Below are positions 1,080 through 63,721 of a DNA stretch of 64,000 nt, in pieces. The first letter of the stretch is position 1. Every line of letters begins with the position of its first letter. The notes beneath the pieces were generated by a model. The model made no database searches. It worked only from the letters and a program-made list of their open reading frames with translations, and had not been told where the DNA came from. A program made the translations under genes and the position numbers. The DNA comes from Natronobiforma cellulositropha (lineage in GTDB: Archaea > Halobacteriota > Halobacteria > Halobacteriales > Natrialbaceae), in contig NZ_JANZXN010000032.1 in NCBI RefSeq assembly GCF_025629245.1, forward strand, positions 62,001-126,000, given 5' to 3'.

Positions 1080-3233
1080 TTAGTGTTCCTCCTCGAGTTC
1101 GGGTTCGTCGTCGGTCTCTATCTGGTCCCAGTCCGGGTGGTCGTTGATGCCGTAGGTCACGCCGAGTGCGTAGTAGAAACGCAGGTCGTCGGTGTCGAGC
1201 GTCCACTCACCCGGGTCGGGGTTGAGAATCGTCTCGCGCAGTCGTTCGACGATGTGTTCGGCTTTCGTTCCCGGATACGATTTTCCGGCCTTCTTCTCGG
1301 CCCGCGTGTAGGTGAGCGTCTTCGCGATGGTCTCCTGTGTGACCTTCTTGATGCGTGAACGGCTAATCGACTTGACCGGATACTGATCGACGAGCGTCGT
1401 CGACCGGTTCTCGCTGTACTCCTGGTAGCTGCCGATGTCACCGACCAGTGCGCCGAGTAAGAAGGCTCCGCGGCGCTGGTCGTTGACTCGCTCCTCGTCG
1501 TCCGGGTCGCTGACGAGAGCGGGTGTCTGTTCGATAAACGATTCGAGTTTCGCCGCCGCGGGATGGCCCCCATCGGCGATCAGAATTTCTTCGGGTGCTG
1601 ACATCGTGTATTCCTCGTACGTGGGTTCGTCCGTGATCGATCGTTTCTGTGGGTCGTTCATCGTCAACAGCTCAAGTTCGTCATCCGCCATCGCACACAG
1701 TTGTGCGAACTGACTGGCGACAAGCAACGAGGGGAAGCCGTCGAACTCGTCGCTCGTCTGTTCGGTGATTATGCGCTCGACGTACTCTTCGAGTAGCAAC
1801 TCGACGGCGGTCGGCTCGCCACTCAGCACGTTGATGAGGACCTCGATTCGCGGGTCGTCGGCCTCGGCTTCGGCATCGTCTCGCTCGGCGAACGTCTGGT
1901 GGAAGTACCAGCCAGTCGTGATTGCGTTGAGGCGGTCACGGTTCTCCGACAACAGGTTCCACTTCTCGTTCGTCGGGAGCGGTGGTGACCACTCGGTGTC
2001 CGTATTGAACGCGCTGGTGTGCTCGACGATTCGACCGTGTTCGATCGCGAGTTCCTTCGGGTAGTGCAGCCGACCGTTCAGCGTCTCGCCGAATACGTCG
2101 TAGCGAGACATCTGGTGGGGCATTACCGCCGCGACGTAGAAGCGGAGGGTGTTCTCCTCGTATCCATTCTCGTCTCTCTCCCGCTTGTACGCGTCTTCGA
2201 TGGGTGTCTGCTCGTCGTCTTCCGTCGTGACGCGATAGAGCATGTTGTACAGCTTGTAGGCCTTCTCCACGGTGGACCGCCCGAAGAAGTACGGCAAGCA
2301 GTACACCTTCGCCCCAAACGTCCGGTACGTGCAGGCTTCGACGAACGTCTCTGCGTTCATCACCGTGACGGCGGCATCTTCCGAAATCGGATGAGAACGC
2401 CACGCGTGCTCGATGTCGAGACCGGGGAACTTCTCGAGTTGTTTGCCGAGATAGTAGTTCTGCGGGTCCTCTGCCGTCCCGACGGTGCGCGCAGGTGTCT
2501 CCGTCACGAGGTCGGTCGCCTCGCCCGAGGAGTCGTTGGCCTTGTTCTTCGTGACGAGTTTCGACAGCTTTCGCTGTCGCATCGCCTCGAGAAAGACGTC
2601 GATCTCTCCGGGCCAGCGATACTCGCCGTCTCGTTCGGTCTTCACCTGTACCGTCAACAGGGCGGTCGCCGACTCACCGCCCAGTTCGTCGATGACCTCG
2701 GCTTCGATCCGCTCGAGTGTTTGCTCCTCTGCACCGAGTTCTGCCAGGCGGTCGATGATCCACCCCTCGGGATGGGTTTCGGCGACGTCGGAGACGACGT
2801 CGTCGGTCGGCCACTTCGTCAGCCGTTCCTTCGCGTAGCGGGCGAGTTTCTCCGGGTCGCTGTTCTGACCCGCCTGGTGGGTGATGCTGTGGTCGATGCC
2901 GCGAGCAGCAGCGTACTTGCAGTGGCCGACCGGCTGCACCAGGTCCGCCGTGTATCGCGTCAACTGGACGGGTCCGACGGCATCATCGGCGAGCGCTGGC
3001 TCGCTCGAGACGTCGACACGGACGACGAGCAGGCTGTCGTCGGTATCGACGAGACCGTCCGCAGCGTCGGGCGTCAGGTAGGAGGCGTACTCGCCGCCGC
3101 CGGTCGTCGCGAGTGTGTAGAGCTTTCCGTAGAGGAACTGCACGTCCCGTAACGACCCGATCGGCGTCTCCGGTAGCTCCGCACGCAGCTTTTCGGGCGG
3201 ATACGTATCGCGAAACGCCTCAGGCGAAAGCAT
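1080..3233 (-). CDS. cas8b: Type I-B Cascade large subunit Cas8b (Csh1)
   Basis: This 717-residue protein fits the TM1802/Csh1 family in length, acidity and position between cas6 and cas7. Cas8b recognises the PAM and anchors the 5' handle of the crRNA in the surveillance complex. The start (MLSPEAFRDTYPPEKL) overlaps the end of cas6 by 14 bp, which supports one polycistron read leftwards. The assignment rests on context and overall similarity to haloarchaeal Csh1 (for example the QFLYGKLYTLATT segment near the N-terminus). I cannot point to a catalytic motif, as expected for a non-enzymatic subunit. No frameshift is seen, so Cascade is probably functional, which matters for the pseudo-CRISPR element upstream. 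Confidence 0.9.
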   Translation of the reverse strand: MLSPEAFRDTYPPEKLRAELPETPIGSLRDVQFLYGKLYTLATTGGGEYASYLTPDAADGLVDTDDSLLVVRVDVSSEPALADDAVGPVQLTRYTADLVQPVGHCKYAAARGIDHSITHQAGQNSDPEKLARYAKERLTKWPTDDVVSDVAETHPEGWIIDRLAELGAEEQTLERIEAEVIDELGGESATALLTVQVKTERDGEYRWPGEIDVFLEAMRQRKLSKLVTKNKANDSSGEATDLVTETPARTVGTAEDPQNYYLGKQLEKFPGLDIEHAWRSHPISEDAAVTVMNAETFVEACTYRTFGAKVYCLPYFFGRSTVEKAYKLYNMLYRVTTEDDEQTPIEDAYKRERDENGYEENTLRFYVAAVMPHQMSRYDVFGETLNGRLHYPKELAIEHGRIVEHTSAFNTDTEWSPPLPTNEKWNLLSENRDRLNAITTGWYFHQTFAERDDAEAEADDPRIEVLINVLSGEPTAVELLLEEYVERIITEQTSDEFDGFPSLLVASQFAQLCAMADDELELLTMNDPQKRSITDEPTYEEYTMSAPEEILIADGGHPAAAKLESFIEQTPALVSDPDDEERVNDQRRGAFLLGALVGDIGSYQEYSENRSTTLVDQYPVKSISRSRIKKVTQETIAKTLTYTRAEKKAGKSYPGTKAEHIVERLRETILNPDPGEWTLDTDDLRFYYALGVTYGINDHPDWDQIETDDEPELEEEH

Positions 3234-4035
3234 TCTCTCCCTCGAGTTCCGTCTCGTCCGGCCGCGTTCGTTCGGCGACGTTCACGAACCCGAGTCCCAG
3301 CGAGTTGCGCTCGCCGAGACCCACGTCGAGCGCCAGATTCAGGTGGCGGCGGTGGTGGTCGTCTCGAACCGTGTACTCGAGTTTCCACTTGCTCAACACG
3401 TAGGTCATCGTCTGCCCCTCAGTTACCGTCACTGGCACCGCGAACGTCTTGAGCAACTCGTAGCCGTCGAACAGCGACCCGTCGACGTCGCTCGGACCCG
3501 GCAAGTACTCGGGTGCGAACAGGTCGTGTTTCTGATCGAGGTTCGCCTCGAGCTGGCGCACCAGCGGCTCCGTCGTGTGCTCCGGACGCCAGTAGACCGC
3601 CGTCTCCCCGCCGGGGTGGTCGATACCGTACTCGTCACACTGCCACGGCGGAATCCGAACGAGGAGACCAGTCCCCGTCTCGAGCGTCCCTCGAGTCCCC
3701 GGTTCGCCGACGTCGGGGGCGAGTGCGCGAACGTCCTCGACGGAGAAGGGCATCGAGCCGACGTTCAACTCCGACTCGTCGAACAGATCCGCCGCCACGT
3801 TGGCGAGCAGTTCCTCGTCGTGAGAGGCCACCAGGAGTTTCCGCTCGTCACCCTCGCGCATATCTCGCGGCGGGAACGGATTCGACATACAGAACCCCGG
3901 TGGCTCCCCCGAGTCGTGCAACTCGTCGTAAGCCGTCCCCTCGAGCGCTCGCCACAGCCGCCCACGCAACTTGTGGTGGTAGGCGTTGTCGTACGCGGCG
4001 TCCGCTCGAGCGGACATATGTACCATGATTCGCAC
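3220..4035 (-). CDS. cas6: crRNA-processing endoribonuclease Cas6
   Basis: Cas6 cleaves the repeat RNA and leaves the 8-nt 5' handle of crRNAs. The 271-residue frame has the N-terminal RAMP region (RADAAYDNAYHHKLRGRLW) with conserved tyrosines and histidines, and near the C-terminus the glycine-rich loop GLGERNSLGLGFVNV that marks Cas6. I chose the GTG at 4035 because haloarchaeal Cas6 proteins start with a short strand of the MR-V-V-LSARADAAYDN type, and because AGAGGTGA (4045-4052) is a good Shine-Dalgarno site 9 nt upstream. Later ATGs at 4026 and 4017 are possible. It is the first gene of the leftward cas operon. Confidence 0.93.
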   Translation of the reverse strand: MRIMVHMSARADAAYDNAYHHKLRGRLWRALEGTAYDELHDSGEPPGFCMSNPFPPRDMREGDERKLLVASHDEELLANVAADLFDESELNVGSMPFSVEDVRALAPDVGEPGTRGTLETGTGLLVRIPPWQCDEYGIDHPGGETAVYWRPEHTTEPLVRQLEANLDQKHDLFAPEYLPGPSDVDGSLFDGYELLKTFAVPVTVTEGQTMTYVLSKWKLEYTVRDDHHRRHLNLALDVGLGERNSLGLGFVNVAERTRPDETELEGENAFA

Positions 4036-5221: not shown

Positions 5222-7375
5222 ATGAGTTTAGCCGAGTCGGATCGCGAACTCGTCGTCGAGGAACTGGGTCGCGAGCCCACCCCGGCCGAGGAGACGCTGT
5301 TCGAGAACCTCTGGAGTGAACACTGTGCGTACCGCTCCTCGAGACCGCTGCTCTCTGCGTTCGAGTCCGGGGGCGAGCAGGTCGTGATCGGGCCGGGTGA
5401 CGACGCGGCGGTCGTCTCCCTCCCGTCGTACGAGGAGACCGAGGAGGAGATTTACATCACGATGGGGATCGAGAGCCACAACCACCCCTCCTACGTCGAT
5501 CCGTTCGACGGGGCGGCGACGGGCGTCGGCGGCATCGTCCGTGACACGCTCTCGATGGGGGCGTATCCGATCGCGCTGACCGACTCGCTCTACTTCGGCG
5601 AGTTCGACCGTGAGCACTCGAAGTACCTCTTCGAGGGTGTCGTCGAGGGGATCAGCCACTACGGCAACTGTATCGGCGTCCCGACGGTGGGTGGCAGCGT
5701 CGACTTCCACCCCGACTACGAGGGCAACCCGCTGGTGAACGTCTCCTGTGTGGGACTGCTCGCCGCGGACCGACTTGTCACCGCCGTCGCCCAGCAGCCG
5801 GGGAACAAACTCGTCCTCGTCGGGAACGCGACGGGACGCGACGGCCTGGGTGGGGCCTCCTTCGCGAGCGAGGACCTCGCCGAGGACGCAGAAACCGAAG
5901 ACCGCCCCGCCGTACAGGTGGGTGACCCCTACGCCGAGAAACTGCTCATCGAGGCCAACGAGTGTCTCGTCGAGGAGGGCCTGATCGAGTCCGCACGCGA
6001 CCTCGGCGCGGCCGGTCTCGGGGGTGCCTCGAGTGAGATGGTCGCCAAAGGCGGTCTGGGTGCGCACATCGAACTCGAGCGGGTCCACCAGCGCGAGCCG
6101 AACATGATCGCCCTCGAGATCCTGCTGGCCGAGAGCCAGGAGCGGATGTGTTACGAGGTCGACCCCGAGAACGTCGAGCGCGTACGCGAGATCGCCGAGC
6201 GCTTCGACCTGGGCTGTTCGGTCATCGGCGAGGTGACCGACGGCAACTACGTCTGTACGTTCGAGGACGAGACGGTCGTCGACGTCGACGCTCACTTCCT
6301 CGGCGAGGGCGCACCGATGAACGACCTCGAGACCGCGCCGGGTCCGGAGCCGGACGTGGACCTCCCGGAGACGGACCTCGAGACGGCGTTCGAGGCGGTC
6401 GTCTCGAGTCCGAACACGGCTTCGAAGCGGTGGGTCTACCGTCAGTACGACCACGAGGTCGGCGTCCGCACGAGTGTCGGGCCGGGTGACGACGCGGCCG
6501 TCATCGCGATCCGTGAGTGTGGGACCGGACTCGCCATCTCCGCGGGTGCCGCGCCGAACTGGACGGCCGTTGCTCCGGAGGCGGGTGCGCAGGCGGTCGC
6601 CCTCGAGAACGCGACCAATCTGGCGGCGAAGGGGGCGACGCCGCTCGCGGCGGTCGACTGTCTGAACGGCGGTAACCCCGAGAAGCCAGCGGTCTACGGC
6701 GGGTTCAAGGGCATCGTCGACGGTCTCGCCGCGATGTGCGAACGGCTCTCGGTGCCGGTCGTCGGCGGCAACGTCTCGCTGTACAACGACTCGGTCTCGG
6801 GGCCGATTCCGCCGACGCCGACGCTCGCGATGGTCGGCACGAAGGCGGGCTACGACGCCCCGCCGGCGGCCGTCGAACCTGCGGGAACGCTCCTGCTCGT
6901 CGGTGACGACGCCCTCGAGTCGGGGTCGTTCGCGCTCGGCGGGTCGGAGTACCTCGCGCGCGTCGGCGGCAGTGACCGCTTCCCCGGCCTGCCCGACGAG
7001 CCGGCGGCGTTCGTCGAGACGCTCGCCGCGGTCGCGGACGACGAGTCGACCCTCGCGACTCACGACGTGAGCCACGGCGGTCTCGCCGTCTCGCTCGCCG
7101 AGATGGTCACCGAGTCGGCCGGTCTCGCCGTTTCCCTGCCCGAGGGTGTCGACCCGGCGGGAGCGCTCTTCCACGAGGGGACCGGTCGCGCGCTGGTCCA
7201 GACGACCGACCCCGAGGGCGTCGCCGAGGCGTTCGACGGCGTCGCCCCGGTCGTCGAACTGGGCGAGGCGACCGGCGACGGCCGACTCGTGATCGACGCC
7301 GGTGACGAACAGCTCGCCGCGACGGCCGCGGAAATCGGTCATTTCCGTTCGTGTATCGAGGCTGCACTCGAGTAG
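5222..7375 (+). CDS. purL: Phosphoribosylformylglycinamidine synthase subunit PurL
   Basis: PurL is the ATP-dependent synthase subunit of the fourth step of purine synthesis. It works with PurQ (glutaminase) and PurS, which are not in this window. The 717 residues match the length of the small archaeal/Gram-positive PurL. Visible landmarks are [17 protein letters not shown] near the N-terminus, two GPGDDAAV motifs typical of the duplicated AIRS-like halves (about residues 57 and 420), and [16 protein letters not shown] near residue 615. The ATG at 5222 is the first start of the frame and gives the family-normal N-terminus. It stands alone, with the cas/CreTA region to the left. Confidence 0.97.
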
Positions 7376-7564
7376 GCAGCTGTTGAAACCGCGGCTTCTT
7401 CGGCGCTGTCGTCGGCTGCGAGCGGGTCTCCGATGGCCGGACGCCCCGTTTCCCCCACGTTCAATACTGTGCTGAAGGGAGGAAAGTATCGATTAGACGT
7501 GCGTAGAAAAGCTGACTGAACCCGTTGACTTTCACCGGACGGGCCGTGTGAATCTACCCTCCGG

Positions 7565-8217: not shown

Positions 8218-10095
8218 TCAGCGGCGCTCGAGCGTCGTCACGTCGGTCACTTCGAAGCGGGTTCCGCCGTTTTCGCCGTTGGCGACCGAGACCTGCCAGC
8301 CGTGAGCGTCGGCGATCGCTCGCGCGACGGCGAGACCGAGACCGTCGATGTCGCCGCCGACGTCGGCCGCGGGGTCGAGGACCCGGTCGTGGGCGTTCGG
8401 TGGAATCTCGGAGGCGTCGTCGAGGAGGAAGAAGCCGCGCTGGCTGGTCGCGACCCCCGGCGTCTCGAAGCCGAGGAGTCCGACCTGGACGGTGACCGCC
8501 CGCTCGGCGCGCGCGGCCGCGTCGTCGAACACGGTCTCGAGCATCCGCGAGAACCGTTCGGGGTCGGCGCGGAGCGTCGCCGACTCCTCGACGATGACGG
8601 TCGACTCGTCGATGCGCGACGCCTCGACCGCCGCTTCGACCGCCGTCTCGAGGTCGATGAGGGTTCGCAGGCCGACGCCGCTCGCGTTGCGGGCGAACTC
8701 GCGGACGTCGTCGACGAGCCGTTCGGTCCGCTCGAGCGTGCGCTCGACGCCTTCCTCTGCGAGCGGGAACTCCCACTCGTCGGCGGGCGTCTCGTCGGTC
8801 TCGAGCGCGTCGGCGATGGTCTCGAGTTCTCGCGTGAGGTCTTTCGAGAGGACGGTCGCGACCGCCTCGAGGCGTTCGGTCTGGCGTTCGAGGCGCTCGG
8901 TTCGTTCCTCGAGGACGCGCTCGCGGTCGGTTCGGTCGAGCGCCGCCCGGGTGTTCTCGACGAGCGTCGAGACGAGTTCGAGGTCGGTCTCGTCGAAGCG
9001 CTTCGGTTCTTTCGAGCCGGTGATGAGGACGCCGTGGGTGCCGATGGGGGCGATGATCTCGGAGCGGATGGTGGTCTCGGGGTTGTAGAGTCCGTCGACG
9101 TCGTGGAGGTCGTCGTAGAGTCGAGATTCGCCCGACTCGAAGACGTCCCAGACGAGTCCCTCGCCCTGACTGAAGCGGGGGAGACCGCCGAACTCGTCGT
9201 GTGCGCCGGCGGTGCCAGCGACGGGATCGAGCGAGCCGTGTTCGTCGTCGAGCAGCCAGATGCCGCTGATCGGCAGGTCGAGGAGGTCGCTCCCGGCGTG
9301 GACGGCGATGGCACAGATCTCTTCGCGGTCGTTGGAGCCGAGCAACCACCGCGTCACCTCGTGGAGTGAGGTCACGATCCGCTCGTGGTCGTGGCGTTCG
9401 GTGACGTCGCGGACGATACTCGCGAGTTTCGCCTCCCCTTCGTCGATCGGGACGAGACGCACCTCGCTCACGCGTTCGGTCCCGTTCGCGTCGGTGAACG
9501 GGACCTCGAGTTCCCGGTAGCGTGCCCGTCCGAGGTCGATATCGTTGATGGCGTGGCCGATTTCGACGGCGTCGTCGGCGTCGATGGCCGCCAGGTCGAA
9601 GACGGTCTCGATGTGCTCGCCGATGACCGCTTCGCGCTCGACCCCGAGCGTCCGCTCGAGCGTGCTGTTGATCGAGGCGACGTGGTTGTGCCGGTCGAGG
9701 ATGACGATGCCGTCTCGCGTCGCTTCGACCACGGCGTCGTGCTGGGCGAGTTTCGCTTCGCGCTCCTTTCGGTGGGTCACGTCGCGCATGTAGACGGCGA
9801 GTCCGTCGTCGAACGGGAACGCGCGGGTCTCGAACCAGGTTTCGAAGGTGGTGTGGTAGACGTCGAACGAGACTGCGGTGCGGTCGGTCATCGACTCGTA
9901 GAATCCGTCGGGAAACTGGTTCTCGATCGCGTGTGGGAGGACGTCCCAGACGACGCGTCCGAGGAGGTCCTCGCGTGGGCGTTCGAACACGGCCGCCGCC
10001 CGGCCGTTACAGTGAGTGAACCGCCACCCCGCATCGACGGCGAAGTGTAAGTCGTCGACGTGGCCGACGTCCGGCGACGGGTAGTTACGACTCAC
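8218..10095 (-). CDS. PAS-PAS-GAF sensor protein with degenerate histidine-kinase core
   Basis: The protein has 625 residues. Two PAS domains (about 15-110 and 120-235) and a GAF domain (about 245-390) are followed by a coiled-coil and a kinase-like module. The H-box region reads VLSKDLTREL, where active kinases have S-H-D-L-R-N-P-L, so the phospho-acceptor His is Lys. The N-box region (MLETVFDDAAARA) lacks the Asn. A G2-like DGLGLAVARAIADAHGW remains. It is therefore probably not an autophosphorylating kinase but a sensor or scaffold. The start is a GTG at 10095 that overlaps a small upstream frame by GTGA. No transmembrane segment is seen, so it is cytosolic. Confidence 0.88.
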   Translation of the reverse strand: MSRNYPSPDVGHVDDLHFAVDAGWRFTHCNGRAAAVFERPREDLLGRVVWDVLPHAIENQFPDGFYESMTDRTAVSFDVYHTTFETWFETRAFPFDDGLAVYMRDVTHRKEREAKLAQHDAVVEATRDGIVILDRHNHVASINSTLERTLGVEREAVIGEHIETVFDLAAIDADDAVEIGHAINDIDLGRARYRELEVPFTDANGTERVSEVRLVPIDEGEAKLASIVRDVTERHDHERIVTSLHEVTRWLLGSNDREEICAIAVHAGSDLLDLPISGIWLLDDEHGSLDPVAGTAGAHDEFGGLPRFSQGEGLVWDVFESGESRLYDDLHDVDGLYNPETTIRSEIIAPIGTHGVLITGSKEPKRFDETDLELVSTLVENTRAALDRTDRERVLEERTERLERQTERLEAVATVLSKDLTRELETIADALETDETPADEWEFPLAEEGVERTLERTERLVDDVREFARNASGVGLRTLIDLETAVEAAVEASRIDESTVIVEESATLRADPERFSRMLETVFDDAAARAERAVTVQVGLLGFETPGVATSQRGFFLLDDASEIPPNAHDRVLDPAADVGGDIDGLGLAVARAIADAHGWQVSVANGENGGTRFEVTDVTTLERR

Positions 10096-10157
10096 GGAGA
10101 CTCACCGTCCCCCGTCGGGTCTCCCCCTTCGAGCCCGGTGTGATCTAATTCCCCCAT
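10092..10157 (-). CDS. 21-residue leader ORF overlapping the start of the PAS/GAF protein
   Basis: On the minus strand AGGTGAGGAC precedes ATG at 10157, which opens a 22-codon frame (MGELDHTGLEGGDPTGDGES then P). Its TGA overlaps the downstream GTG start as GTGA. Composition is acidic and haloarchaeal. It could be a translated, coupling leader peptide. Alternatively it is only the mRNA leader. The Shine-Dalgarno site is better than anything directly before the GTG, which favours coupling. Confidence 0.4.
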   Translation of the reverse strand: MGELDHTGLEGGDPTGDGESP

Positions 10158-10339
10158 GTCCTCACCTGTTGGTCTCCCTGCTACTACTGCGACGAGTTAT
10201 TTGAGTGTCGTGGCCGTTCTGATGGAACGTTCGACGACCGACTCGAGCGGGGCGTACCACTACCGGTGTTGTCACAGCCACTACACATGGTCGTTTCGCC
10301 TCCGGTCTCCGTCACCCGTTTCTGTGTGGCCGTCCCTGC

Positions 10340-10918
10340 TCAGGAGTACGACGGCGGTGTCTCGGGCACCCCGTCACGCTGGTTCAGGACGCGGGCGATG
10401 GTGAACAGGGCGTCCGAGAGCCGGTTGAGGTACTCGACTGCGACCGGACTCACCGGTTCGACCGCAGCCAGGGCGACGACGCGTCGCTCGGCCCGTCGGC
10501 AGACGGCCCGTGCGTGGTGGGTTCGCGCGCCGTGCTCGCTGCCGCCGGGCAGGACGAACGAGCGCAGCGGCTCGAGTTCTTCGTCGTAGCCGTCGATCCA
10601 CGACTCGAGTGCGGCGACGTGCTCGGCGGCGAGCGTCGGGCCGTCCGCAGCACTCGCTCCCGACTCGCCACCCTCGTGGCTCTCTGCGTCCGTCTCGCCC
10701 GGTGCGGCGAGTTCTGCCTGGAGAATGTGGAGGTGGTTCTGGATCCGTTCGAGGTGGTCGTCGACGTCGTCGTAGCCGGCCGGTCGAATCGTGCCGACGA
10801 GCGCGTTGAGTTCGTCGACCGTCCCGTAGGACTCGATGCGCTCGCTCGCCTTCGAGACGCGCGTCATGTCGCGCAGGTCGGTCTGTCCCTCGTCACCACG
10901 GCCGGTGTAGATCGACAT
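10340..10918 (-). CDS. Cob(I)alamin / cob(I)yrinic acid a,c-diamide adenosyltransferase (PduO type)
   Basis: This enzyme transfers the adenosyl group of ATP to reduced corrinoid to make adenosylcobalamin. The 192-residue frame starts MSIYTGRGDEGQTDL, the ATP-binding TGRGD-G motif of the PduO/MMAB family. It also has SYGTVDELNAL and, near the C-terminus, RRAERRVVAL and YLNRLSDALFTIARVLN, which contribute active-site Arg, Asn and Asp. An acidic insertion lies near residue 80. It is transcribed alone, 101 bp after the gene at 11019-12215 and in the same direction. Confidence 0.95.
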   Translation of the reverse strand: MSIYTGRGDEGQTDLRDMTRVSKASERIESYGTVDELNALVGTIRPAGYDDVDDHLERIQNHLHILQAELAAPGETDAESHEGGESGASAADGPTLAAEHVAALESWIDGYDEELEPLRSFVLPGGSEHGARTHHARAVCRRAERRVVALAAVEPVSPVAVEYLNRLSDALFTIARVLNQRDGVPETPPSYS

Positions 10919-58789: not shown

Positions 58790-59158
58790 ATGGAGAGTTC
58801 GGCGGGCCAGTCCCCGACGGCGTCGCTCACCCCGCTTCACTGGGCCGCCATCGCGCTCGCGCTGCTCAGTGGCGCGATTCACCTCGTCCTCGGCGTCGAG
58901 TTCCTCCCACACTGGATGGGTGGTGCCTTCCTCCTCGCCGCAGGCGGCTTCTTCGGCGGCGTCACCCTGGTCCTCCTCGACGTCCGTCGTCGCCTCCTCT
59001 CCCTCCTCGGCATCCCGTTTACGGCCGGCCAACTGCTCTTCTGGTACCTCCTCAACCGTCCGGTACTCGAGGATCCCTCTCCCATCGGCGTTCTGGACAA
59101 ACTCGCACAGGTCCTCCTGATCGCCGCGCTCGCCGTCCTCTACACCCGTGAGTCGTGA
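58790..59158 (+). CDS. Small four-helix membrane protein
   Basis: The protein has 122 residues. Four hydrophobic helices (about 16-35, 42-62, 66-85, 98-117) with little in between; HWAAIALALLSGAIHLVLGV is the first. It overlaps the start of the next gene by 11 bp, so it is probably co-transcribed with the cluster that follows. Function is unknown. Confidence 0.75.
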   Translation: MESSAGQSPTASLTPLHWAAIALALLSGAIHLVLGVEFLPHWMGGAFLLAAGGFFGGVTLVLLDVRRRLLSLLGIPFTAGQLLFWYLLNRPVLEDPSPIGVLDKLAQVLLIAALAVLYTRES

Positions 59159-59939
59159 CACCGCGACCGACCGGCGTCCCGACGCGGCGAGGGAATCCCG
59201 CCCTGCCGCCCGCTCGAGTGACGTGCGGTGTGTCGTCGCTCGATCCGGAGTCGTCCTCGGCGTCCCCACCACCCTGGTGCTCGCCGCGCTCGCGCTTCGT
59301 GGCCCGTCGCTCCCCTGGCGGTTTCACGCGGCCGTCGTCTGCGTCGTCCTCGGCGGCGTCCTCGTCGTTCACCGGGCGACCGTCACGAGTACGCGACTCG
59401 CGGGTCCACAACGGCTCACGCTGGCGACGGTGCTCACGCTCTCTCGAGCGCTGGCGCTCGCGTTTTTCGCGGGCCTGACCGTCGTTGGGCCGGCCGGTCG
59501 GGGTACGTGGGTCGCGGCGGGGCTGTTCGCGTTCGCCGTCGTTCTCGACGCGGCCGACGGAGCGCTCGCGCGTGCCATCGGCGCTACGACGGCCCTCGGT
59601 GCACGCGTCGACGCGGAGGTCGACGGGGCGACGGTGCTCCTCGGGTCGGTCTACGCGGTCGCCGTCGGTGGGGCACCGGCTATCTTCCTCGCCGTCGGAC
59701 TCGCCAGGTACGCGTTCGTCCTCGCCTGCTGGTGGCGAACGGTTCGCGACAACCCCGTCTCCGACCTGCCGCCGAGTCGGCGCAGACGCGTACTCGGCAG
59801 CGCGGCGATGGCCGTCTGTGTTCTCGCCGTACTTCCCGTCGTCGCCCCGCGAATCTCCTGGCTGCTCGCCGCGGCCGTGACCCCGCCGTTTCTCGTCGGC
59901 TTCGCCGCCGACTACCTGTCGGTCTCCCGCCGTCGCTGA
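59148..59939 (+). CDS. CDP-alcohol phosphatidyltransferase family protein
   Basis: The protein has 263 residues from a GTG at 59148. The CDP-OH-P motif D-x2-D-G-x2-A-R-x8-G-x3-D-x3-D is intact in LDAADGALARAIGATTALGA followed by RVDAEVDG (about 137-163). Six or so hydrophobic segments surround it. The enzyme joins a CDP-activated lipid or polyol to an alcohol; its substrate may be set by the following genes. It begins a rightward cluster. Confidence 0.88.
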   Translation: MSRDTATDRRPDAARESRPAARSSDVRCVVARSGVVLGVPTTLVLAALALRGPSLPWRFHAAVVCVVLGGVLVVHRATVTSTRLAGPQRLTLATVLTLSRALALAFFAGLTVVGPAGRGTWVAAGLFAFAVVLDAADGALARAIGATTALGARVDAEVDGATVLLGSVYAVAVGGAPAIFLAVGLARYAFVLACWWRTVRDNPVSDLPPSRRRRVLGSAAMAVCVLAVLPVVAPRISWLLAAAVTPPFLVGFAADYLSVSRRR

Positions 59940-60114
59940 GACGACGGCCAACGACCAAGTGGACGGCCGTCGACGCTCTCGACGTGCTCGCCCTCGAACC
60001 GCTCTCGCCGACTCGAGCCAGGTCTCCTCGTGGTCCCCGCAGCAGTCGCCCTCCGGCCCGGTACCGCCGGGTCGTCCGCCGACGGCCGCGGTGGCCGTGG
60101 ACGCAACGCCAGCG

Positions 60115-61122
60115 ATGACGGCGAGACGGCTCTCGTTCGTCGCACCCGGGGAGGTCACCGTCGAGACCGGTCCGGCTCCCGACCCCGGCCGCGGTGAGCT
60201 CCTCGTCGAGACGGCCTACTCCGCGATCAGCTCCGGCACCGAGCGCCTCGTCTACCGCGGCGAGGCACCCGCGGACCTCGCGGCCGACGAGACCATCGAC
60301 GCGCTCTCCGGCTCGCTCGAGTTCCCGCTCTCGTACGGCTACGCTGCGGCGGGAACCGTCGTCGCCGTCGGTGACGAGGTCCCAGAGGAGTGGCTCGAGC
60401 GTCGGGTCTTCGCGTACAACCCCCACGAGAGCCACTTCCTGGCGAGTCCCGACGACGTCCTCGAGATTCCACCCGACGTCTCGCTCCGCGAGGCGACGCT
60501 GCTCGCGACCGTCGAGACCGCGCTCACGTTCGTCCTCGACGGCGAACCGGTCATCGGCGAGCGCGTCGCCGTCTTCGGGCAGGGCGTCGTCGGACTCCTG
60601 ACGAGTGCGTTGCTCGCCCGGTCGCCGCTCGAGGCGCTCGTCGCCGTCGAGGACCTCCCGCGCCGGCGCGACCTCGCCGCCGACCTGGGTGCCGACCGCG
60701 CACTCCCGCCGGCGGACGCGCCGGCGGCGTTTCGCGAGGCGACGGGCGAACGCGCCGACCTCGTCTACGAACTCTCCGGCTGTCCGTCGGCGCTCGACGA
60801 CGCGGTCGAAACCGCCGGGTTCGGCGGCCGGGTGGTCGTCGGCTCCTGGTACGGCACCAACCCGGTCACGCTCGACCTCGGCGGGCGCTTTCACCGCGAG
60901 CGCATTCGGCTCGTGAGCAGCCAGGTGAGCACCATCGCGCCACGACACCGGGGGCGGTTCTCGCGCGACCGTCGACACGACCTCGCCTGGACGTGGCTCT
61001 CACGGCTCACCCTCGAGGACCTGTTCACGCACGAACTCCCGCTCGAGGACGCACAGACGGCCTACCGAACGCTCGAGGAGCGCCCGAACGAGGCGGTGCA
61101 GGTGGTGTTCGACTACGGCTGA
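60115..61122 (+). CDS. MDR-superfamily dehydrogenase lacking the catalytic zinc ligands
   Basis: The ATG at 60115 gives 335 residues. The GroES-like N-terminus has SAISSGTERLVYRG (about 34-47) where zinc alcohol dehydrogenases carry the Cys ligand, as in the BchC-like branch. The Rossmann motif is VAVFGQGVVGLLTSAL (about 147-162). YELSGCPSALDDAVETAGFG and VVVGSWYGTNPVTLDLGGRF are family-like. Substrate unknown. It is the second gene of the pathway cluster, after a 175-bp gap. Confidence 0.87.
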   Translation: MTARRLSFVAPGEVTVETGPAPDPGRGELLVETAYSAISSGTERLVYRGEAPADLAADETIDALSGSLEFPLSYGYAAAGTVVAVGDEVPEEWLERRVFAYNPHESHFLASPDDVLEIPPDVSLREATLLATVETALTFVLDGEPVIGERVAVFGQGVVGLLTSALLARSPLEALVAVEDLPRRRDLAADLGADRALPPADAPAAFREATGERADLVYELSGCPSALDDAVETAGFGGRVVVGSWYGTNPVTLDLGGRFHRERIRLVSSQVSTIAPRHRGRFSRDRRHDLAWTWLSRLTLEDLFTHELPLEDAQTAYRTLEERPNEAVQVVFDYG

Positions 61123-61234
61123 CGGCGCGGCCGACTCCGGCGTACGCGCTGTGAGTGTGTCGGCGGTCACCTGCGGTCTCAGCGCCTGCAGTCGAGAGTC
61201 GGGTACTTACCCGCTGGCGGGTGTCGACACAGCT

Positions 61235-61612
61235 ATGTACTCGGTGTCGCTCTCGCGGTCGTTCACCGCGAGCCACGCCCTGACCGTTCCCGACCCGGGT
61301 CCCGAAGGCGACCTCCACGACCACCGTTACACCGTGGAGACGACGCTCTCCGGCCCGACGCTCGACGAGTACGGCTATCTCGTCGACATCGATCACCTCG
61401 CGGCCGCGCTCGACGAACTCGTCGACGCCCACCGGGGGCGCGTCCTCAACGACGACCCCGCCTTCGGGGACGAGAACCCGAGCGTCGAACACTTCGCCCG
61501 GATCTTCGGCGACCGACTGCTCGAGCGACTCGACCCGGTGCCCGCCACGTCGCTCCGGGTGTCGATGCGCGAAGACGACCTCGCCTGGGTCGCTCACGAG
61601 CGCGACCTCTGA
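61235..61612 (+). CDS. 6-pyruvoyl-tetrahydropterin synthase-like protein, Glu in place of catalytic Cys
   Basis: The ATG at 61235 gives 125 residues. Zinc ligands are H14 (TASHAL), H28 and H30 (GDLHDHRY). Residue 24, four before the first His of the pair, is Glu where QueD and classical PTPS have Cys. In PTPS-III enzymes a Glu here goes with side-chain cleavage to 6-hydroxymethyl-dihydropterin. PSVEHFARIFGDRLLERL completes the fold. No queE or queC is adjacent, so archaeosine synthesis is not the obvious role. It is followed immediately by a glycosyltransferase. Confidence 0.85.
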   Translation: MYSVSLSRSFTASHALTVPDPGPEGDLHDHRYTVETTLSGPTLDEYGYLVDIDHLAAALDELVDAHRGRVLNDDPAFGDENPSVEHFARIFGDRLLERLDPVPATSLRVSMREDDLAWVAHERDL

Positions 61613-61613
61613 C

Positions 61614-62795
61614 ATGGAGGCGTCGACGCCGAGCGGCCGCGCCGACGGACTCTCACTCGGCCTGGTCGTCCCCGGACCGCTCGAGACGCGCTCCGGCGGC
61701 TACCGTTACGACCGCCAGCTCGTCTCACAGCTCCGCGCCCGCGGCGACGCTGTCGAAGTGATCGACCTCTCGCGCTACGACGCCGGACCCGAGACCGCGT
61801 CCGCTGGTGAGACACTCCCGCGAGCGCTCGAGCACCGCCTGAACCGCCCGTTCGACGCCCTCGTCCAGGACGAACTGTGTGCGCCGACGCTGGGGTGGCT
61901 CAATCCACACCTCGAGCGCCCGCACGCGCTCGTCGCGCTCGTCCACCACCTCCGGTCGGCGGCGGCCGCCGTCCCCGGAGGCGACCTCCTCGAGACCGAA
62001 CGGCGCTACCTCGAGTCGGTCGACGCCACCGTCTGCGTCAGCGAGGCGACGCGCCGATGTGTCGAGGCGTACGTCTCGCGGCCGACGCTCGTCGCCCCAC
62101 CGGGCGGTCGGGTCGGGTCGCGGGCGACGTCTCGAGCGGCCGTAGCCGCGCGGGCGACCGACGACCCGCTCCGACTCCTCTTCGTCGGGGCCCTCCTCCC
62201 CCGGAAAGGGGTGGTGACGCTCCTGGAGGGACTCCTCTCGCTCCGACGGCGGCTCGAGCCGGCGGCCGGCCGCCCCGGCCCGGTTCACCTCACTCTCGTC
62301 GGGGACCACCGACGCGACCCCGCCTACGCGCGCCGCGTCCTCGACTCCATCGACGCGTTCGGACTCGAGGCGGACGTGACCGTCACCGGCGAGGTCTCGA
62401 GTGCGCGCCTCGTGTCGCTCCTCTCGCGTGCCCACGTCCTCGTCGCCCCCTCACGCTACGAGGGCTTCGGGATGGTCGCCCTCGAAGCGATGGAACACGG
62501 CGTCGTCCCGGTTGTAAGCGCCGCTGGCGGTGCGCGTGAGCTCGTCGACGATGGGGAAAACGGGCTGCTCGTCCCGCCGGCGGACCCAGACGCGATCAGC
62601 GAACTCCTCGCGTGGCTCGCACGCGACCGGTCGCGACTCGCCCGACTCGGGGGTCGTGCGCTCGAGACCGCCGACGCCCACCCCGACTGGCCGGAGACTG
62701 CGGACGACGTTCGGTCGTTTCTCCGTTCGCTCGAGGTGGCCGACACCGGCCAGACCCGCCGTGATCCGTCGCTCGAGGAGGGCGAGCACCGGTGA
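61614..62795 (+). CDS. GT4-family glycosyltransferase
   Basis: The protein has 393 residues. GPLETRSGGYRYDRQLVSQL near the N-terminus and, in the C-terminal Rossmann half, RLLFVGALLPRKGVVTLLEG and APSRYEGFGMVALEAMEHGV (the E-x7-E donor-binding motif) are those of GT4/GT-B enzymes. It starts one base after the PTPS-like stop and overlaps the methyltransferase by four, so the three are translationally linked. The acceptor is unknown. Confidence 0.93.
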   Translation: MEASTPSGRADGLSLGLVVPGPLETRSGGYRYDRQLVSQLRARGDAVEVIDLSRYDAGPETASAGETLPRALEHRLNRPFDALVQDELCAPTLGWLNPHLERPHALVALVHHLRSAAAAVPGGDLLETERRYLESVDATVCVSEATRRCVEAYVSRPTLVAPPGGRVGSRATSRAAVAARATDDPLRLLFVGALLPRKGVVTLLEGLLSLRRRLEPAAGRPGPVHLTLVGDHRRDPAYARRVLDSIDAFGLEADVTVTGEVSSARLVSLLSRAHVLVAPSRYEGFGMVALEAMEHGVVPVVSAAGGARELVDDGENGLLVPPADPDAISELLAWLARDRSRLARLGGRALETADAHPDWPETADDVRSFLRSLEVADTGQTRRDPSLEEGEHR

Positions 62796-63721
62796 CTGGA
62801 GGAGTCTCTACGACGGCGTACCTGCTGGCGAAGCGGACCGTCGACGACCGGGCGCTCGACCGCCGGGTCCTCGAGCGCTTCGCGTCGGCGCTCGCCGACC
62901 GCCCAGACGGAGCGCCTGTTTCGATCCTCGAGGTCGGTGCCGGGCCGGGGACGATGGTCGCCCGCCTGGCCGCCCGTCGGTGTCTCCCGCCGTCGGTTTC
63001 CTACCGGGCGATCGATCGCGACCCCGACTGTATCGCGCTCGCTCGCGAGCGGCTTCCGCGGTGGCTCTCGACGGCCGGATACCGCGTCGAGTGGCGGGGT
63101 GACGACCTCCTCGTCGCCCGTGACGGGGAGCGAACGCTCGCGGTCACACTCGAGGTCGGGGACGCCTTCGCCGTCACCGACGAGGTAGATGCGGTCGTCT
63201 CTGGGGCGTTTCTCGACATCGTCGACCTCGCCTCGACGGTCGATCACTTCCGCGACGTGCTCGCCGACGGCGGCCTGGTCTACGCGCCGATCACGTTCGA
63301 CGGCGAGACCGGGTTCGCCCCACGCGACCCACGCGACGAGCGCGTACTCACCGCCTACCACCGACACATGGACGCGGTCCGCGATGAACCGGGGAGCAGC
63401 CGTCGCGGCCGGGAGTTCCTCTTCGAGTGGCCCGCGGCCGGCGGGTCGGTGCTCGCCGCCGGCGGCGGGGACTGGATCGTCCGCCCGCTCGAGACCTATC
63501 CACCCGACGCGACGCCCGACGGGGCGCGCGGCTACCCCGCCGACGAGGCGCGCGTCCTCGAGTACCTCCTCGAGACGGTCGAGGGCGCGCTCGCGGACTA
63601 CCCGCCGTCGGTCGTCGATCCGACTGTGTACGAGCGCTGGCTCGGCCGCCGTCGCGCCGAACTCGAGCGCGCCGAACTCGTCTTCGTCGCGCACAACCTC
63701 GACGTGCTGGCGCGCGTCTGA
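62792..63721 (+). CDS. Class I SAM-dependent methyltransferase
   Basis: The protein has 309 residues from a GTG at 62792 overlapping the glycosyltransferase stop. Motif I is SILEVGAGPGTMVARLAA (about 45-62), then YRAIDRDPDCIALARERL and, near 130-150, VDAVVSGAFLDIVDLASTVD. The active site gives no hint of whether carbon, nitrogen or oxygen is methylated. It is the last complete gene of the cluster. Confidence 0.9.
   Translation: MTGGVSTTAYLLAKRTVDDRALDRRVLERFASALADRPDGAPVSILEVGAGPGTMVARLAARRCLPPSVSYRAIDRDPDCIALARERLPRWLSTAGYRVEWRGDDLLVARDGERTLAVTLEVGDAFAVTDEVDAVVSGAFLDIVDLASTVDHFRDVLADGGLVYAPITFDGETGFAPRDPRDERVLTAYHRHMDAVRDEPGSSRRGREFLFEWPAAGGSVLAAGGGDWIVRPLETYPPDATPDGARGYPADEARVLEYLLETVEGALADYPPSVVDPTVYERWLGRRRAELERAELVFVAHNLDVLARV

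Follow-up and report, generated by a model that had tools for sequence, protein, structure and literature searches.

What product is made by the five consecutive plus-strand genes that end a stretch of 64,000 nucleotides from Natronobiforma cellulositropha (contig NZ_JANZXN010000032.1, positions 62,001 to 126,000; this whole stretch is called the window here)? The genes encode a CDP-alcohol phosphotransferase, an MDR dehydrogenase, a PTPS-like T-fold protein, a GT4 glycosyltransferase and an S-adenosylmethionine (SAM)-dependent methyltransferase. All five frames were found, each supported by a Pfam family, in the order given by an earlier reading of the letters alone (hereafter the original prediction), which had proposed a modified, glycosylated pterin or a glyco-phospho product. 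It is nearly certain that the set belongs to a conserved pathway common to archaea and bacteria. Judging from sequence comparisons, we put at about 0.55 the probability that its product is a pyrimidine or pteridine that derives from GTP via a ring opening of the riboflavin type and carries a sugar and a methyl group; the product is possibly tethered to a phospholipid.

59148-59939, plus strand: CDP-alcohol phosphotransferase (PF01066, 52.7 bits)
59959-61122, plus strand: open reading frame of the MDR dehydrogenase, BchC-like and without zinc ligands, likely start ATG 60115 (PF00107, 48.2 bits)
61151-61612, plus strand: open reading frame of the PTPS-like T-fold protein, likely start ATG 61235 (PF01242, 78.8 bits)
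61304-61306, plus strand: codon of E24 in the PTPS-like protein, at the QueD Cys position (ExxxHxH)
61571-61573, plus strand: codon of E113 in the PTPS-like protein, aligning with what we take to be the family's pterin-anchoring Glu
61614-62795, plus strand: GT4 glycosyltransferase (PF00534, 119 bits)
62792-63721, plus strand: SAM-dependent methyltransferase of an unnamed family (PF08242, 38.1 bits)

Conservation of the gene set in archaea and bacteria

Co-occurrence was scored in the window genome and 60 relatives of the same order, treated as haloarchaea since the named plasmid relatives are haloarchaeal, with presence limits of E 1e-3 for the PTPS-like protein, 1e-30 for the MDR protein, 1e-10 for the methyltransferase and 1e-6 for the CDP-alcohol phosphotransferase. 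The PTPS-like gene is present in 35 of these 61 genomes, the MDR gene in 34, the methyltransferase gene in 33 and the CDP-alcohol phosphotransferase gene in 30. PTPS-like and MDR genes occur together in 33 genomes, the former alone in two, the latter alone in one and neither in 25 (p ~1e-13; the p-values for co-occurrence ignore the kinship of the genomes). With the methyltransferase as partner, both genes are found in 33 genomes, the PTPS-like gene alone in two, the methyltransferase gene alone in none and neither in 26; for the CDP-alcohol phosphotransferase the corresponding counts are 29, six, one and 25. A PTPS-like gene without the MDR gene was seen in one of the 50 genomes that are at least 90% complete (G021). 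The set is retained although the genes are rearranged, inverted or scattered in some genomes (G012, G013, G049), a pattern that favours a shared function over inherited order.

The set recurs in bacteria. Plasmid records of Thiodictyon, Rhizobium SL42 and Peteryoungia carry MDR, PTPS, GT4 and methyltransferase genes in a row together with RibD, cytochrome b and CDP-alcohol phosphotransferase genes, RibA being present as well in the last two, and shorter versions occur on plasmid records of Methylosinus, Palleronia and a rhodobacterium. A scan of contigs from one genome per species with an MDR query returned at least 580 relatives, of which the best 80 loci were kept, including some truncated at the end of a contig. 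These best 80 belong to Proteobacteria, Actinomycetota, Gemmatimonadota and Acidobacteriota, and contain genes for PTPS (79), GT4 (74), CDP-alcohol phosphotransferase (65), methyltransferase (63, with eight other loci added by a second methyltransferase query), RibD (45), creatininase (43), the flippase-like LPG_synthase_TM (43) and RibA (38). FkbM genes, which are of envelope type, also occur with bacterial clusters; a Pfam scan of a Halomonas locus served as a check on the bacterial cluster content. Comparison of haloarchaeal and bacterial profiles gave 99.6-100% for all five families, against 2.1% and 0.05% for two controls. In this comparison, made with hhalign, the CDP-alcohol phosphotransferase reached 99.89%, the MDR protein 100% and the GT4 protein 100%, and the methyltransferase aligned over its full length with E 6e-40. 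The window's MDR protein is 36% identical to that of the Thiodictyon cluster (alignment A1). A PTPS match in Streptomyces NBC_00019 had no other cluster gene in its annotated stretch.

The MDR gene was found in 21 of 148 genomes sampled from the phylum to which the window belongs, four of them outside the order. Of the loci from these four, L185 has methyltransferase, RibA, MDR, PTPS and GT4 genes in this order plus a creatininase gene, L188 has RibA, MDR, PTPS and GT4 genes, and L186 and L187 have the MDR and PTPS genes only. The co-conservation of the five families, which the original prediction had proposed as its own check and without which it would have had to be given up, is thus found both in the 61 genomes and in bacteria. 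Since the set has stayed intact in Proteobacteria and Actinomycetota as well as in haloarchaea and other archaea, and often includes a GTP cyclohydrolase copy, it very likely makes something useful to the cell.

The PTPS-like protein

In an alignment with the second PTPS of this genome, E24 of the PTPS-like protein falls on the Cys, at the catalytic Cys position, as had been proposed. The loop in the window protein reads ExxxHDH (HDH at 61316-61324), and the presumed zinc triad is intact as H14, H28 and H30. Among the haloarchaeal cluster rows, the E24 position is Glu in 30 of 31 and Asp in one, the residue three before the His is Gly, Asn or Ala, and HxH is kept in all 31. The bacterial cluster rows instead show GPAQxxHGA in 87 of 87, with Ala at the E24 position and the last presumed zinc His lost; these counts leave out one row per side, L067 (a short, early-stopping frame) and L080. 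L187, from an archaeon outside the order, has GPETRLHGH, intermediate between the two motifs. E113, presumably the pterin-anchoring residue, is invariant in alignments A2 (10 rows) and A3 (26 rows).

Three side observations concern this gene. At the presumed zinc site, HDH of the window protein stands against HSH in the remaining 30 haloarchaeal cluster rows that were counted. In L040, a PTPS-like gene with Asp for the loop Glu was found, and the other cluster queries were unmatched within 19.5 kb. In L067 (Haloarcula marismortui pHMA411), a PTPS-like match at 9982-10384 lies between the MDR and GT4 genes where the incomplete gene table has no gene; its translation ended early, which would fit a damaged gene or one with a different start.

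The window protein resembles QueD (PTPS-I) in its T-fold, PF01242 and three His residues, but differs from it in having Glu for Cys. It scores 43.5 bits against the QueD model (cut-off 89.25), and the genome's other PTPS (G000, contig C11) also stays under that cut-off, at 69.7 bits, so that the score is not decisive. The other PTPS carries CARPHGH, which fits CxxxHGH, and adjoins a QueE-like gene whose best NCBIfam models are QueE, below their cut-offs. No que gene was recognized by Pfam or NCBIfam among the named cluster genes, genes further out having been scanned in part. From motif and neighbour, we conclude that the window protein, as far as its sequence tells, is not QueD. The original prediction would have been undermined had this gene been the genome's only QueD and essential for archaeosine, an option rejected in view of the second PTPS beside the QueE-like gene. 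Membership in PTPS-II (biopterin) was likewise rejected, the loop having no Cys and the motif CxxxxxHGH being absent.

The closest solved relative is SCO6650 of Streptomyces coelicolor (PDB 3D7J), both by sequence (2.3e-9) and by fold (8.0e-9, template-modelling score 0.88), where it is nearer than Plasmodium PTPS; the latter is absent from the seven sequence matches among solved structures. The structural model used an alignment that combined the window protein with 25 bacterial members, so that the fold match and the sequence match are not independent of each other. SCO6650 shares with the window protein a GP motif ahead of the first His of HxH and the conserved Glu, whereas bacterial cluster members of the SCO6650 type have HGA and Ala in place of HDH and Glu. 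We take 3D7J to be without zinc and without PTPS activity. In a tree, cluster proteins from haloarchaea (31) and from bacteria (39, chosen from 88) form one clade with support 99/95 and 11 'other' PTPS rows outside, the details being unsure given few columns and long branches; the row labelled L053_halo represents the second, non-cluster PTPS of its genome and belongs with the 'other' rows. By sequence, then, the PTPS-like protein groups with the SCO6650-type cluster proteins, and the cluster gives a gene context to the PTPS homologue 3D7J, for which there is a solved structure but no assigned function. It would also bear on PTPS-V, if the cluster protein belongs to that subfamily of COG0720, the function of which is called unclear in a passage of PMC5041015.

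Probable entry from GTP, the proposed pathway and its alternatives

Related clusters contain, in addition, a GTP cyclohydrolase of the riboflavin type, which is ArfA in haloarchaea and RibA otherwise, as well as a creatininase and a RibD-type reductase. ArfA makes formylamino-ribosylaminopyrimidine phosphate (FAPy), which the creatininase ArfB deformylates. The ArfA gene was found in 57 of the 61 genomes; seven hold two copies, and in all seven the second copy lies inside the cluster, next to the MDR gene in six and to the methyltransferase gene in G055. In G049 and G054 the sole detected ArfA gene adjoins a cluster gene, and in Haloarcula GH36 an ArfA gene overlaps the MDR gene. The window genome has a single ArfA gene, on another contig. 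Haloferax uses ArfA for riboflavin synthesis, according to a passage of PMC8305020. The bacterial cluster cyclohydrolase is GTP cyclohydrolase II (GCHII), and at least one further GCHII gene was present in each of 20 bacterial genomes picked for a cluster RibA. In L188, a 577-residue open frame (1990-3723) fuses GCHII to the MDR protein and is followed by the PTPS and GT4 genes, a putative fusion seen in this one archaeal metagenome-assembled genome, which is 61% complete.

FolE is present in all 20 bacterial genomes and inside the cluster in none, the nearest lying ~42 kb from the cluster PTPS gene. MptA was found once in 60 of the 61 genomes; among the 35 that carry a PTPS-like gene, 19 have MptA on a different contig and 16 at a distance of at least 720 kb, so that it is never in the cluster. 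The Halomonas cluster RibD, the only one scanned with Pfam, has a reductase domain and no deaminase domain, so that the 2-amino group would stay; an archaeal reductase model is among its best NCBIfam matches, all below cut-off. With RibA or ArfA inside the clusters, FolE and MptA outside and a RibD limited to the reductase, the substrate would be FAPy or the similar diamino-ribosylaminopyrimidine phosphate, with the 2-amino group kept. It is therefore probably a pyrimidine of the riboflavin branch and not dihydroneopterin triphosphate, the entry compound favoured by the original prediction. We hold it quite likely that a riboflavin-type cyclohydrolase feeds the pathway, and while the gene names suggest a folate-type start, a ring opening of the riboflavin (vitamin B2) type is probably the better choice. 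The enzyme families are those that start riboflavin and F420 synthesis (ArfA-ArfB-ArfC or RibA-RibD), but in the cluster they are extra copies that stand beside PTPS, MDR, GT4, methyltransferase and CDP-alcohol phosphotransferase genes.

The five genes would then encode the late part of a pathway from GTP to a glycosylated, methylated 2-amino-4-oxo-pyrimidine or pteridine. From gene context, ArfA or RibA would open GTP, yielding the formylamino- or diamino-ribosylaminopyrimidine phosphate; where present, the ArfB-like creatininase and the RibD-type reductase would act next, and in the window genome the lone ArfA encoded elsewhere would supply the substrate. The PTPS-like protein may hold the 2-amino-4-oxo ring via E113 and carry out an isomerisation, a ring closure or a change to the side chain, in a reaction that differs from those of PTPS-III and QueD, a role towards which we lean. 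The MDR protein might transfer a hydride on the side chain, the GT4 protein add a sugar and the methyltransferase a methyl group. Most speculatively, the CDP-alcohol phosphotransferase might join a polyol or sugar to a CDP-activated lipid such as CDP-archaeol or CDP-diacylglycerol; transport of the lipid product might then fall to the flippase-like protein of bacterial clusters. We propose this step because CDP-alcohol enzymes often take polyol phosphates as acceptors, because no cytidylyltransferase is among the conserved families named (no search aimed at one was made) and because a flippase-like gene is found in 43 of the best 80 loci; lipid attachment nevertheless has, in our estimate, rather less than even odds. 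The fullest version of the proposal, which we offer tentatively and consider doubtful as a whole, is a membrane-anchored redox or light-absorbing cofactor common to archaea and bacteria: a phospholipid with a glycosylated, methylated GTP-derived pyrimidine or pteridine head group, which would arise through an additional branch leaving the riboflavin-type opening, with a T-fold enzyme of new chemistry.

Several observations weigh against the proposed pathway. Genes for a cyclohydrolase, a creatininase or a reductase are absent from the cluster in the window, and the entry there is therefore deduced from relatives; no ArfA was found in 24 of the 32 haloarchaeal loci searched, and RibD and flippase-like genes were unmatched in all 32 with bacterial queries. 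G021 holds the PTPS-like gene alone, two loci from archaea outside the order (L186 and L187) carry MDR and PTPS genes only, and the CDP-alcohol phosphotransferase gene is missing in six of the 35 genomes with a PTPS-like gene, so that attachment to a lipid might be dispensable, or the idea mistaken. FAPy-type cyclohydrolases are marked by a Tyr to Met change. The residue is Met in 28, His in three and Tyr in four of the 35 cluster RibA proteins accompanied by a creatininase, and Tyr in four of the seven without one, the other three being unassigned at the motif position. The link between Met and creatininase is thus imperfect and follows phylogeny, and L185 has Tyr with a creatininase.

A pterin glycoside might be made instead from dihydroneopterin phosphate, the MptA or FolE product, for example a haloarchaeal charged pterin or an analogue of biopterin glycoside, with the PTPS-like protein acting on the side chain and the MDR protein replacing sepiapterin reductase. 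Pterin glycosides occur in cyanobacteria and green sulfur bacteria, where they are made from dihydroneopterin triphosphate, and charged pterins of haloarchaea were reportedly described by Lin and White in 1988; no paper on the latter was found in the Creative Commons-licensed part of PubMed Central, where one match contained just the word solfapterin. Like the proposed product, these compounds are sugar-bearing or charged GTP-derived bicycles, and no link between them and the cluster was found. The PTPS fold with an invariant, presumably pterin-anchoring Glu, the presence of MptA in nearly all genomes and the GT4 gene in the cluster speak for such a product. The cluster cyclohydrolases, however, are ArfA or RibA, with MptA and FolE in no cluster of the genomes checked, and the loss of a presumed zinc His throughout the bacterial members makes ordinary PTPS chemistry unlikely there; we regard this explanation as unlikely. 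Far less probable still is a bypass of dihydroneopterin aldolase for folate, to which the original prediction came close in likening E24 to PTPS-III. Both proteins have a Glu before HxH, and replacing Cys by Glu alters the reaction of the Plasmodium enzyme (a passage of PMC2229834), but the PTPS-III motif is given as ExxHGH in part of PMC5041015, which puts the Glu of the window protein one residue further from the His. MptD (PF04038) was found in 59 of the 61 genomes, the window's included, with or without the cluster, both misses being incomplete genomes. A PTPS-III or folate role was rejected on the spacing and on MptD, and the kinship to SCO6650 rather than to Plasmodium PTPS also argues against it.

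Two further explanations would account for part of the set. The genes may be accessory to F420 or riboflavin synthesis, in line with a passage of PMC5041015 in which PTPS-IV is said, from unpublished work, to act in F420 synthesis; ArfA or RibA, the creatininase and the RibD_C reductase are all enzymes of that type. Yet the PTPS-like gene is present in just 35 genomes against 57 for ArfA, and the GT4, methyltransferase and CDP-alcohol phosphotransferase genes have no known place in those pathways, which leaves this role improbable. A cell-envelope glycolipid operon, with PTPS-like and cyclohydrolase genes merely nearby and serving otherwise, would suit the envelope-type CDP-alcohol phosphotransferase, GT4, flippase-like and FkbM genes. 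Against such chance proximity stand the co-occurrence in genomes where the genes are split, the conservation across two domains and the GCHII-MDR fusion, and we think it slightly less probable even than an accessory role. The riboflavin-type pathway proposed above is the reading that we prefer to all of these.

The other proteins and neighbouring genes

The CDP-alcohol phosphotransferase has its catalytic motif D..DG..AR........G...D...D complete at residues 134-159, and its segment DAADGALARAIGATTALGARVDAEVD matches the signature DxxDGxxAR(x8)GxxxDxxxD of that family; against solved structures it gave weak matches only. The MDR protein has a single Cys in 335 residues, and Ser is invariant in 10 aligned rows at the expected position of the first zinc-ligand Cys. 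The protein thus appears to lack the catalytic and structural zinc ligands of zinc-dependent alcohol dehydrogenases, as originally suggested. Its best NCBIfam match, and closest relative there, is the chlorophyllide dehydrogenase BchC, although with 87 bits it falls far under the cut-off of 291; BchC, we presume, is likewise without zinc ligands. The methyltransferase matched no NCBIfam family, and its model (predicted local distance difference test score 88) matched generic class I methyltransferases only, giving no hint of the substrate.

The claim of 1-4-base junctions holds for the last two pairs, with one base between the PTPS-like and GT4 genes and a 4-base overlap between the GT4 and methyltransferase genes. 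Relatives' proteins begin at ATG 60115 in alignments of the MDR protein, which is therefore probably its start, and alignment with relatives likewise placed the PTPS-like start at ATG 61235; if both hold, the MDR gene follows its neighbour after 175 bases and the PTPS-like gene after 112, and no other junction among the five genes is tight. One gene upstream had been overlooked:

58790-59158, plus strand: DUF7475 small protein (PF24287, 35.7 bits)

Its 3' end overlaps the CDP-alcohol phosphotransferase gene by 11 bases and it turned up in 19 of 29 clustered neighbourhoods from haloarchaea, making its product a likely sixth member of the unit.

Public records name cluster genes '6-carboxytetrahydropterin synthase' and 'zinc-binding alcohol dehydrogenase'; both labels misfit the sequences, and the database names are questionable. 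No description of this cluster was found among the matches listed from the Creative Commons-licensed PubMed Central literature (subscription papers lay outside that scope); of these matches, PMC5041015 treats the PTPS family and one paper mentions SCO6655. The suggestion of a product not yet described in haloarchaea agrees with this as regards the cluster and needs care in view of the charged pterins mentioned above; as far as those matches show, the families are known and the combination and product are new.

Two further neighbours were noted. A cytochrome b561-type protein, possibly a redox partner, adjoins the cluster in some bacteria (L066, 11988-12527; L063, 12534-13091), and a Gfo/Idh/MocA oxidoreductase gene lies near it in seven of the 32 haloarchaeal loci (L073, at 5676-7415, and L044, L048, L052, L054, L060 and L067).

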